DNA of 64,000 nucleotides from contig NZ_CSTE01000003.1 of NCBI RefSeq assembly GCF_001368915.1, forward strand, positions 1-64,000, read 5' to 3'. A program made the translations under genes and the position numbers. This document shows, piece by piece, positions 10,874 to 13,405 of the stretch; the stretch's first letter is position 1, and each line of letters begins with the position of its first letter. The stretch is from Haloferax massiliensis. Its GTDB lineage: Archaea; Halobacteriota; Halobacteria; Halobacteriales; Haloferacaceae. The notes under the pieces were generated by a model, which had not been told where the DNA came from, searched no databases, and saw nothing but the letters and a program-made list of their open reading frames with translations.

Positions 10874-11644
10874 ATGACGCGAGAGAGACAGAACCGACCG
10901 AGCCGGACGGACGCGCCGACAGCGGCGACCCCGCCGAGTCCACGGACCGCGCCGGACGCGACGGCCGTCGTCCTCGCCGGCGGCGAGAGCAGTCGCTTCG
11001 GACCCGGACACAAGGCCCTCGCGACGCTCGACGGAGAGCCGCTAATTCGGCGCGTCGTCGGGACGCTCCGAACCGTGACGGGTCGCCCCCCGATAGTCGC
11101 GGTTCGGACCGCCGGCCAGCACGAGCGTCTCACCGCGGCGCTTCCGGCGGCGTGGGGCGTGCGGTTCGTCGGCGACGACCCGAGTCTGTCGGGGCCGCTC
11201 GCCGGCGTCGCCGCGGCCGCCGAGGCGGCCGCGACACCGTGGCTGTTCGTCGCCGGCTGTGATATGCCGCTTCTCGAACCGCACGCGGTGGCGGCGCTGT
11301 TCGAGCGCGCCGCCCGGCGAGACGGCGACGGCGACCACCTCGTCTCCGCGGACGGTGACCGCCTCGCCTCCACCGGCGGCGACCGTTCCGTCCCGCCGGC
11401 CATCGTCCCCGTCTCCGAGCGGGGTCACGAACCGCTCCACGCCCTGTACCGTCGGTCTGCGGTCCGGGACAACGCCTTCGAACTCGCTCCCGACGACGGC
11501 CTCGGGGCGCTCTTGGACCGCGTCGACGGCGTCGAGTACGTCGGGTTCGACGCGCTTCCCGAGAGCGTCGGCCGGTCGGTGACGAACGTGAACACGCGCA
11601 CTGAGTTGGCGCGGGTCGCCGCCGGGTGCGAGGTGCGGCGATGA
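10874..11644 (+). CDS. mobA: Molybdenum cofactor guanylyltransferase
   Basis: A 256-residue NTP-transferase. It attaches GMP to molybdopterin to make the MGD cofactor that DmsA requires. The N-terminal nucleotide-binding loop is VVLAGGESSRFGPGHKAL (about residues 34-51). The Mg-binding Asp lies in VAGCDMPLL near residue 133. A 30-residue Thr/Pro-rich leader precedes the fold, so a later start is possible, but no good internal ATG is present. The last five codons (CEVRR) coincide with the 20-bp unit that is then repeated three times downstream, and the stop overlaps an ATG (ATGA). Confidence 0.88.
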   Translation: MTRERQNRPSRTDAPTAATPPSPRTAPDATAVVLAGGESSRFGPGHKALATLDGEPLIRRVVGTLRTVTGRPPIVAVRTAGQHERLTAALPAAWGVRFVGDDPSLSGPLAGVAAAAEAAATPWLFVAGCDMPLLEPHAVAALFERAARRDGDGDHLVSADGDRLASTGGDRSVPPAIVPVSERGHEPLHALYRRSAVRDNAFELAPDDGLGALLDRVDGVEYVGFDALPESVGRSVTNVNTRTELARVAAGCEVRR

Positions 11645-11700
11645 GATGCGAGGTGCGGCGATGAGATGCGAGGTGCGGCGATGAGATGCGAGGTGCGGCG
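11627..11700 (+). repeat. 20-bp tandem repeat joining mobA to modA
   Basis: Three perfect copies of a 20-bp unit (atgagatgcgaggtgcggcg, 11641-11700), preceded by a 14-bp partial copy that is the end of mobA. Each unit holds a Shine-Dalgarno-like GAGGTG 6 nt before the next ATG. Each encodes MRCEVRR and stops in a TGA overlapping the following ATG (ATGA). The units therefore form a chain of three 7-codon reading frames from the mobA stop to the modA start. Confidence 0.95.
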
Positions 11701-12615
11701 ATGAGTCGTGACGCGCGCGGTGCGTCGAGCAGGCGGACGTTCCTCGCGGCCGTCGGCGGGGTCGCGGCGGCCGGTTTCACCGCGACGGCGGGCTGTCTCG
11801 GCCGGGCGGGCTCGACACCGACCGTGTCGGTTCTCGCCGCCGGAAGCCTCCAGCGGGCGCTCACCACCGAATTCGAATCGCCGGAAGGGACCCGCGTCGA
11901 GGTCGAGGCTCACGGCTCAGCGCGCGTGGCTCGGATGGTCGCCGACGGCCAACGCGACCCCGACATCGTCGCGCTCGCGGACCCGACGCTGTTCGACGCG
12001 CCGCTTTCGGTGCCGTGGTACGCCACGTTCGCCAACAACGCGCTCGTCGTCGCGTACAACCCGCAGACCGACGGCGGAACGCGGGTCGCCGAAGCCGCGT
12101 CGTGGCCCGACGCCCTCCTCGACGACGCGGTCAGCCTCGGCCGAACCGACCCCGACCTCGACCCGCTGGGCTACCGGACGCGGTTCGCGCTCGCGCTCGC
12201 GGCCGACCACTACGACCGGCCGGCGCTGGCCGACGACCTGCTCCGGCGCGACCAGGTATACCCCGAGACGCAACTGCTCGCGCAGTTCGACGCCGGCGGC
12301 GTCGACGCGGCGTTCGTCTACCGGAGCATGGCCGTCGAGCGCGGCTACCCGTCCCTCGAACTCCCGGCCGCAATCAACCTGAGCGACCCCGACCACGCGT
12401 CGGCGTACGAGACGGCTTCCTACACGCTTCCGGGGGGCGTCACCGTCCGCGGTGCGCCAATCCGGTACGCCGCGACGCGCCGCACCGACACGGCGGCGGC
12501 GAAGTCGGTGTTCGAGGCGCTCGTCGGGACCGCCGGCGACCTCCTCGAACCCTCCGGGTTCACCGTGCGCGAGAGCCACCCACACTACTTCGGAGATGTC
12601 CCACCGACAGCCTAA
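11701..12615 (+). CDS. modA: Molybdate/tungstate-binding lipoprotein of an ABC importer
   Basis: A 304-residue solute-binding protein. A Tat lipoprotein signal (SSRRTFLAAVGG, lipobox TAGC) anchors it outside the membrane. The mature part starts VSVLAAGSLQRAL with an SARVARMV segment, typical of ModA/WtpA oxyanion-binding proteins, whose Ser residues bind the anion. The ATG at 11701 is the last of a series of repeat-borne ATGs and directly precedes the signal; an ATG at 11686 would add five codons. It overlaps the permease gene by 20 bp. Molybdate and tungstate types cannot be told apart here. Confidence 0.82.
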   Translation: MSRDARGASSRRTFLAAVGGVAAAGFTATAGCLGRAGSTPTVSVLAAGSLQRALTTEFESPEGTRVEVEAHGSARVARMVADGQRDPDIVALADPTLFDAPLSVPWYATFANNALVVAYNPQTDGGTRVAEAASWPDALLDDAVSLGRTDPDLDPLGYRTRFALALAADHYDRPALADDLLRRDQVYPETQLLAQFDAGGVDAAFVYRSMAVERGYPSLELPAAINLSDPDHASAYETASYTLPGGVTVRGAPIRYAATRRTDTAAAKSVFEALVGTAGDLLEPSGFTVRESHPHYFGDVPPTA

Positions 12616-13405
12616 CCGCCGCGAGCGCGGCGTCACGCGACTCCTGCCCGAGACGTGGCGAGGCCTGACGCTGGTTCTCGCCGGGATGCTCCTCATCTAC
12701 TACCTGCTTCCCATCGGCGCGCTCGTCCTCGCGCAGTCGCCGGCGTCGCTGGCCGCCGACGTGACGAGCGAGGTCGTCCTGACCGCCGCCACCAACTCCG
12801 TCGTCGCGGCGACGCTCAGCACGCTGGTCGCCGTCGCCTTCGGCGTCCCCTTGGCCTACTGGCTCTCGCGCACGTCGTTCCGCGGCCGCGACGTGATTCT
12901 GGCGCTGGTGATGCTCCCGCTGGTTCTCCCGCCGGTCGTCAGCGGGATGCTACTCCTCAAGCTCGTCGGCCCCGCCGGCCTCGGCCAACTGACGAGCGTC
13001 CCGCTGACGCGCTCGCTCGTCGGGGTCGTCCTCGCCCAGACCTACGTCGCCTCGCCGTTTCTGGTCGTGACCGCGAAGACGGCCTTCGACGGCGTGGACA
13101 GACAGCTCGAAGCGGCGGCCCGCTCGCTCGGCGAGGACCGCGTCGGGAGCGTCCGGCGCGTGACGCTCCCGCTGGCGAAACAGGGCATCCTCGCCGGCGT
13201 GACTCTGACGTTCGCCCGGGCGATGGGCGAGTTCGGCGCGACGCTCATGCTGGCGTACTACCCGCGGACGCTCCCGGTGCAAATCTGGGTGTCGTATCTC
13301 TCGACCGGCCTCGACGCCGCGTTCCCCGTCGCGCTCGTCCTCGTCGGCATCGCCGTCGGGGCGATTTTGCTGGTCCACGCGCTGGGGACAAACCCGTGGG
13401 AGTGA
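12596..13405 (+). CDS. modB: Molybdate/tungstate ABC transporter permease
   Basis: A 269-residue permease with six helices and the EAA-type cytoplasmic loop (EAAARSLGEDRVGSVRRVTLPLAK, residues about 177-200), close to ModB/WtpB proteins. The start at 12596 lies within the end of modA, so the two are translationally coupled; the frame is open further upstream only as a modA shadow. No ATPase gene follows: the next gene is a MaoC-type hydratase. The importer must use an ATPase encoded elsewhere or shared. Confidence 0.85.
   Translation: MSHRQPNRRERGVTRLLPETWRGLTLVLAGMLLIYYLLPIGALVLAQSPASLAADVTSEVVLTAATNSVVAATLSTLVAVAFGVPLAYWLSRTSFRGRDVILALVMLPLVLPPVVSGMLLLKLVGPAGLGQLTSVPLTRSLVGVVLAQTYVASPFLVVTAKTAFDGVDRQLEAAARSLGEDRVGSVRRVTLPLAKQGILAGVTLTFARAMGEFGATLMLAYYPRTLPVQIWVSYLSTGLDAAFPVALVLVGIAVGAILLVHALGTNPWE

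Follow-up and report, generated by a model that had tools for sequence, protein, structure and literature searches.

A tandem array at the mobA/modA joint of a Haloferax genome, probably one of a recurrent class of junction duplications that preserve termination-reinitiation

A 20-bp segment is present as four tandem units at the joint between a mobA-like gene and a modA/wtpA-like gene in a Haloferax genome, and each unit carries a ribosome-binding sequence, a start codon and an overlapping stop codon. We consider it probable that this array is a recent expansion of the mobA/modA junction, and that it represents one case of a class of duplications, recurrent in Halobacteriales, that preserve termination-reinitiation between the flanking genes. 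The units (RTGCGAGGTGCGGCGATGAG) occupy positions 11626-11705 on the forward strand of the window, by which we mean the whole 64,000-nucleotide stretch of DNA that was analysed, and they lie at a 4-nt ATGA overlap of mobA with the modA/wtpA-like gene. TRF assigns the array a period of 20, 4.0 copies, a 100% match and a score of 158. A unit-by-unit listing reveals that units 2-4 are identical and that unit 1 deviates in its first base alone (G, not A).

The SD-like sequence GAGGTG, located by pattern scan, stands five bases 5′ of an ATG in every unit of the array (11630-11635 in unit 1, recurring at 11650, 11670 and 11690). The 16S rRNA of the same genome terminates in GATCACCTCCT, with the anti-SD CACCTCC at its 3′ end, and this terminus complements GAGGTG, so that SD pairing at the units is standard. 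GAGGTG-N5-ATG occurs five times in the window, where 0.19 would be expected, and the array units account for four of these occurrences. Three mini-ORFs, each encoding MRCEVRR followed by a stop, run through the array on the forward strand. The start of mini-ORF 1 (11641-11664) overlaps the mobA stop via ATGA, the TGA of mini-ORF 1 (11662-11664) overlaps the ATG at 11661 of mini-ORF 2 (11661-11684), and the final TGA of mini-ORF 3 (11681-11704) overlaps the modA ATG at 11701. The stop/start overlap is therefore 4 nt (ATGA) at all four junctions. Thus, both the tandem repeat and the chain of three seven-codon frames described at this joint by a sequence-only reading are present, each frame with its GAGGTG, its ATG and a TGA overlapping the next ATG.

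Each unit also holds a second ATG (11646, 11666 and 11686), situated one base past the stop. Enumeration of all ATG and GTG routes shows that a start at this codon opens an alternative mini-ORF (MRGAAMRCEVRR; 11646-11684 and likewise 11666-11704) that bypasses one stop, and that a start at 11686 leads into the modA frame and supplies five extra N-terminal residues. All ATG routes through the array finish in modA.

The genes around the array are ordered as a molybdopterin-binding oxidoreductase domain gene, mobA, the modA/wtpA-like gene and a modB-like permease gene. The mobA-like gene (NTP_transf_3; Pfam PF12804, E 4e-31) spans 256 codons at 10874-11644 on the forward strand, and its TGA (11642-11644) falls inside the first ATGA. 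On the same strand, the modA/wtpA-like gene (11701-12615; Pfam SBP_bac_11, E 1e-20) encodes a Mo/W substrate-binding protein with a twin-arginine-type signal (SSRRTFLAA); WtpA models score below cut-off. It overlaps by 20 nt the permease gene (12596-13405, forward strand), which is recognized by Pfam BPD_transp_1 and by NCBIfam WtpB/ModB models. The nearest relatives at this locus are H. sulfurifontis and H. denitrificans, and only in these two species and the present one does mobA occupy the place adjacent to modA. The modA gene shares 95.5% DNA identity with its H. sulfurifontis orthologue, whereas mobA (10874-11644) is more diverged, at 89% identity with gaps. The genome contains three additional MobA-like genes. 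The modA of four other Haloferax species (loci L007-L010) opens with the codons that start the mobA of the window (MTRERRNRP..., 10874-10960). It therefore looks as though mobA was inserted behind the first codons of modA, or was deleted in the other Haloferax species with its ends fused.

In both H. sulfurifontis and H. denitrificans the junction holds a single unit, with mobA ending in CEVRR-TGA over the ATG of modA. A search for two adjacent units (with up to 3 mismatches) in 392 Halobacteriales genomes found one place in total, the other 391 genomes having none. Because the sister species are single-unit and the unit pair is found nowhere else in the 392 genomes, the comparison indicates that the array arose by lineage-specific tandem expansion of a single mobA/modA junction. 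This agrees with the earlier proposal that the repeat was copied from the end of mobA, and a change in copy number, which had been raised as a possibility, is seen between related species, with one unit in the two sisters and four here. No match to the region was found among plasmid records.

Such structures are rare within the genome itself. A census covering 2.58 Mb, or 64% of the genome, yielded only 10 arrays with about three or more copies of a near-identical unit of at least 8 bp, and this array alone forms a chain of at least three mini-ORFs between two long ORFs. The array is not a chance product. Other tandem duplications in this genome (G000) include a 139-bp duplication on contig 2 (L104; 715869-716160), which generates a chain of coupled mini-ORFs, 22 and 25 codons long, and precedes an integrase-like (tyrosine-recombinase-like) gene. 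A 121-bp tandem duplication near position 384251 of the same contig, on the minus strand, lies in the leader immediately 5′ of a 16S rRNA gene.

The length of the unit determines whether a duplicated junction retains its frames. A TGA starts one base after the ATG starts, and the unit must therefore be 2 mod 3 in length; the mini-ORF frame is open without further luck because its codons are the last codons of mobA reread. With a unit of 20 bp, which is 2 mod 3, the end of mobA stays at the first TGA and the start of modA stays at the last ATG whenever a unit is gained or lost. The sequence-only reading had attributed this neutrality to 20 not being a multiple of 3. Neutrality to unit number holds for the 20-bp unit, but the reason given is insufficient, since 2 mod 3 is required. 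The observation made in that reading is thus confirmed, and its interpretation is partly supported. One third of random junction duplications give a relay for free. Selection therefore cannot be read from this array by itself, its 20-bp length being weak evidence, and the evidence for selection comes instead from a survey of other genomes.

Work on H. volcanii provides the framework for a mechanism. ATGA gene pairs in this species are strictly coupled, with an SD that does not support de novo initiation (PMC6728339), and almost no re-initiation is left once the gap reaches ∼22 nt or more (PMC10666635). In E. coli, coupling needs just the last 15 nt of the upstream gene. The mobA stop and the modA start lie 56 nt apart, and a plain spacer of this length is expected to uncouple modA because coupling in H. 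volcanii is lost at ∼22 nt or more. The relay, by comparison, should keep modA coupled because the −4 geometry is held at each step.

The duplicated 20 bp carry the full set of signals of a haloarchaeal coupled junction (SD-like sequence, ATG and overlapping TGA), and, with 20 being 2 mod 3, the start in each unit reads exactly into the stop of the next. Serial termination-reinitiation through the array is the most likely course of translation. A ribosome finishing mobA would start again on the ATG overlapping the mobA stop, read seven codons to the next TGA, and repeat this cycle of termination and re-initiation until it reaches modA. Unit count would be free to change while both genes and their coupling stay intact. 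Each extra unit would scale the output of modA by one further factor of re-initiation efficiency, and the second ATG might soften this loss by allowing a step to be skipped. That ribosomes actually run the relay, and how large its effect on modA would be, we infer from the arrangement of these signals. More generally, junction duplications in Halobacteriales probably persist because stepwise termination-reinitiation is kept.

We searched 392 Halobacteriales genomes for two GGTG-N5-ATGA motifs spaced 16-46 bp apart, with frame left unconstrained; the survey covers one SD form and one SD-ATG spacing. The spacing is 2 mod 3 in 33 of 43 doublet places, 0 mod 3 in 8 and 1 mod 3 in 2 (p 7e-9 against one third). 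When five likely orthologous copies are subtracted, 28 of 38 places are 2 mod 3 (p 4e-7). All but one of the 33 places with 2-mod-3 spacing are open relays. Outside the order, only 6 of 25 places have this spacing (Fisher p 3e-5), and because no bias is seen there the class is claimed for Halobacteriales and not for archaea generally. We infer that selection acts as the filter of unit lengths within the order.

At 21 places, the upstream frame closed by the first TGA carries a coding GC3 signature and the last ATG opens a long ORF. This codon-position GC pattern and the long downstream ORF show that the 21 places contain true mini-ORFs between genes. A doublet could also arise where an in-frame Met of the upstream gene happens to accompany one true junction, and this is ruled out at the same 21 places, where codon-position GC ends the upstream gene at the first TGA. 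The junctions within a relay resemble one another, with an identity of 0.58 compared to 0.34 for mismatched pairs (2000 shuffles, maximum 0.41); the value for places with a single mini-ORF is 0.49. This likeness within places supports an origin of the mini-ORFs by tandem duplication.

Several doublet hits were set aside. Those in G182, G224, G377 (C2:757138) and G144 (C4) are glycine-rich coding repeats, and the array in G244 lies outside a gene-gene junction. The flanks of the hit in G025 (spacing 22) are not coding-like in the right frame, and the array at C2:189841 of G377 has merely a 41-codon open frame upstream. A search with an SD spacing of 6 returned 84 of 107 places at 0 mod 3; these are dominated by Gly/Asp-rich coding repeats, such that the search neither supports nor tests the 2-mod-3 claim, and it was left out of the support.

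Multi-unit arrays occur at other gene joints as well. One, in another Haloferax genome (G008, contig 17, 30163-30332; P29; L239 / L205), runs through at least six junctions and separates two chitinase-like genes. An array between an rRNA methyltransferase gene and a DUF7122 gene (P35) has four junctions in G015 or three in G342, one between RibD_C and HD-domain genes in G281 (P29) has four, and one between a LysX-like ligase gene and a semialdehyde dehydrogenase gene in G379 (P38) has three. With the window included, all five independent gene-flanked multi-unit arrays are at 2 mod 3 (chance 0.004); a sixth, in G377 (P29), has weaker flanks. The arrays at other genes have only SD, ATG and TGA in common, and their unit sequences are unrelated. 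These findings indicate that the layout is not a one-off, and that frame-preserving junction arrays recur at unrelated gene joints in other haloarchaea.

Orthologous arrays differ by whole units. By alignment coordinates, on which the comparisons for G008, G281 and G015 are based, the arrays of G015 and G342 differ by 35 bp, which is one unit, and the array of G281 differs from its orthologue in G389 by 87 bp, which is 3 × 29 bp or three units. For the G008 array, the gap in G009 does not correspond to an integral number of units, and the array is apparently absent in G012.

Another explanation for the array is that it is a remnant of neutral slippage at a harmless site, modA being transcribed or translated independently (from its own start site or as a leaderless message), so that the relay is without consequence. 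Near-identical units do point to a recent expansion, and a relay comes free with one third of junction duplications. We nevertheless consider this reading unlikely. Scanning the region with a sigma-70 style promoter consensus, which is bacterial and uninformative for archaea, gave no promoter-like site, and the GC-rich repeat lacks a TATA-like stretch. Moreover, the 2-mod-3 bias over many genomes suggests that frame matters at such sites generally, and the units of the G015 and G342 arrays have diverged while retaining SD, ATG and TGA. Alternatively, unit number could be an adaptive dial, selected to lower translation of modA (and modB) relative to mobA, with slippage frequent enough for tuning. 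Serial re-initiation would indeed attenuate geometrically, and unit number differs among related species both here and at two other loci. However, substrate-binding proteins are usually needed in excess rather than in reduced amounts, and mobA is one of several MobA-like genes, so that the mobA:modA ratio may be of no consequence. Selection for such a dial is accordingly improbable.

An assembly artefact or a wrong unit count is a further concern, since tandem repeats are prone to error and the G008 array contains an N inside the assembly as well as an odd 41-nt spacing. Here, however, the 80-bp array is shorter than an ordinary short read, unit 1 is marked by its first-base difference, and the flanks are contiguous and colinear with those of the sister species, making an error of this kind very unlikely. 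Direct repeats of ∼20 bp are also typical of iteron-like elements, and the unit might then act at the DNA or RNA level (as protein-binding iterons or stem-loops) rather than as part of a translation relay. This seems hardly credible: folding of the array region revealed no special RNA structure, the predicted fold being worse than that of shuffled sequence (z +2.4); the unit is a copy of the single junction of the sister species; and what the arrays at other genes share is SD, ATG and TGA, not sequence. Expansion of the junction with its termination-reinitiation preserved is the reading that we favor. A more ambitious version, in which haloarchaea possess a class of self-made, frame-neutral junction arrays forming chains of ORFs of 5-14 codons, whose slippage-set unit number would serve as an evolvable attenuator of operon stoichiometry, we regard as tentative and somewhat doubtful.

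If ribosomes do run the relay, the mobA/modA joint exists naturally with 1 and with 4 re-initiation steps, in the very genus that served to establish coupling (other loci have 3, 4 and at least 6), such that the efficiency per step would be directly measurable. The shortest ORF that permits archaeal re-initiation would likewise become measurable. The relay would account for the growth of tandem repeats within operons that nevertheless stay intact, and for start codons that gene finders may overlook or misplace at such arrays. The 2-mod-3 bias across the order constitutes genome-scale evidence for selection on overlapping-gene coupling in haloarchaea.

Among the papers searched, none describes junction-duplication relays in archaea, an absence that is no proof of novelty. 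The nearest precedent is provided by the MIRUs of mycobacteria. According to the account in a review (PMC12548453, for Supply et al. 1997), a small ORF in these short intergenic repeats is coupled at −4 spacing to the gene next to it, which keeps the impact of insertion on expression minimal, and the mini-ORFs at 11641-11704 resemble it in overlapping their neighbours at −4. As that review describes them, MIRUs are one mobile family inserted at many start codons, whereas the archaeal arrays are each built in place out of the local junction and have no sequence in common between loci. The units do not form a dispersed repeat family: the unit pair occurs at one place in 392 genomes, and the units of the other arrays are unrelated to it. 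The relay also resembles bicistronic design leaders (ref 78 in PMC12548453), in which a short leader ORF hands ribosomes on via an overlapping stop and start. As presented in that source, these designs are engineered and place one leader ORF at the front of the transcript, whereas the relay is natural, repeated and located between two genes. Phase-variable coding repeats, which change by slipped-strand mispairing, similarly place slippable tandem units where translation is affected. They toggle genes on and off by shifting frame; in contrast, because 20 is 2 mod 3, changes in unit number at the array shift neither frame and leave both genes intact. Finally, termination-reinitiation (TeRe) at the ATGA pairs of H. 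volcanii (Huber 2019, PMC6728339; Huber 2023, PMC10666635) shares with the array its 4-nt overlap and upstream SD-like sequence, and does so in the same genus, but involves one junction where the array places four in series through 7-codon ORFs.
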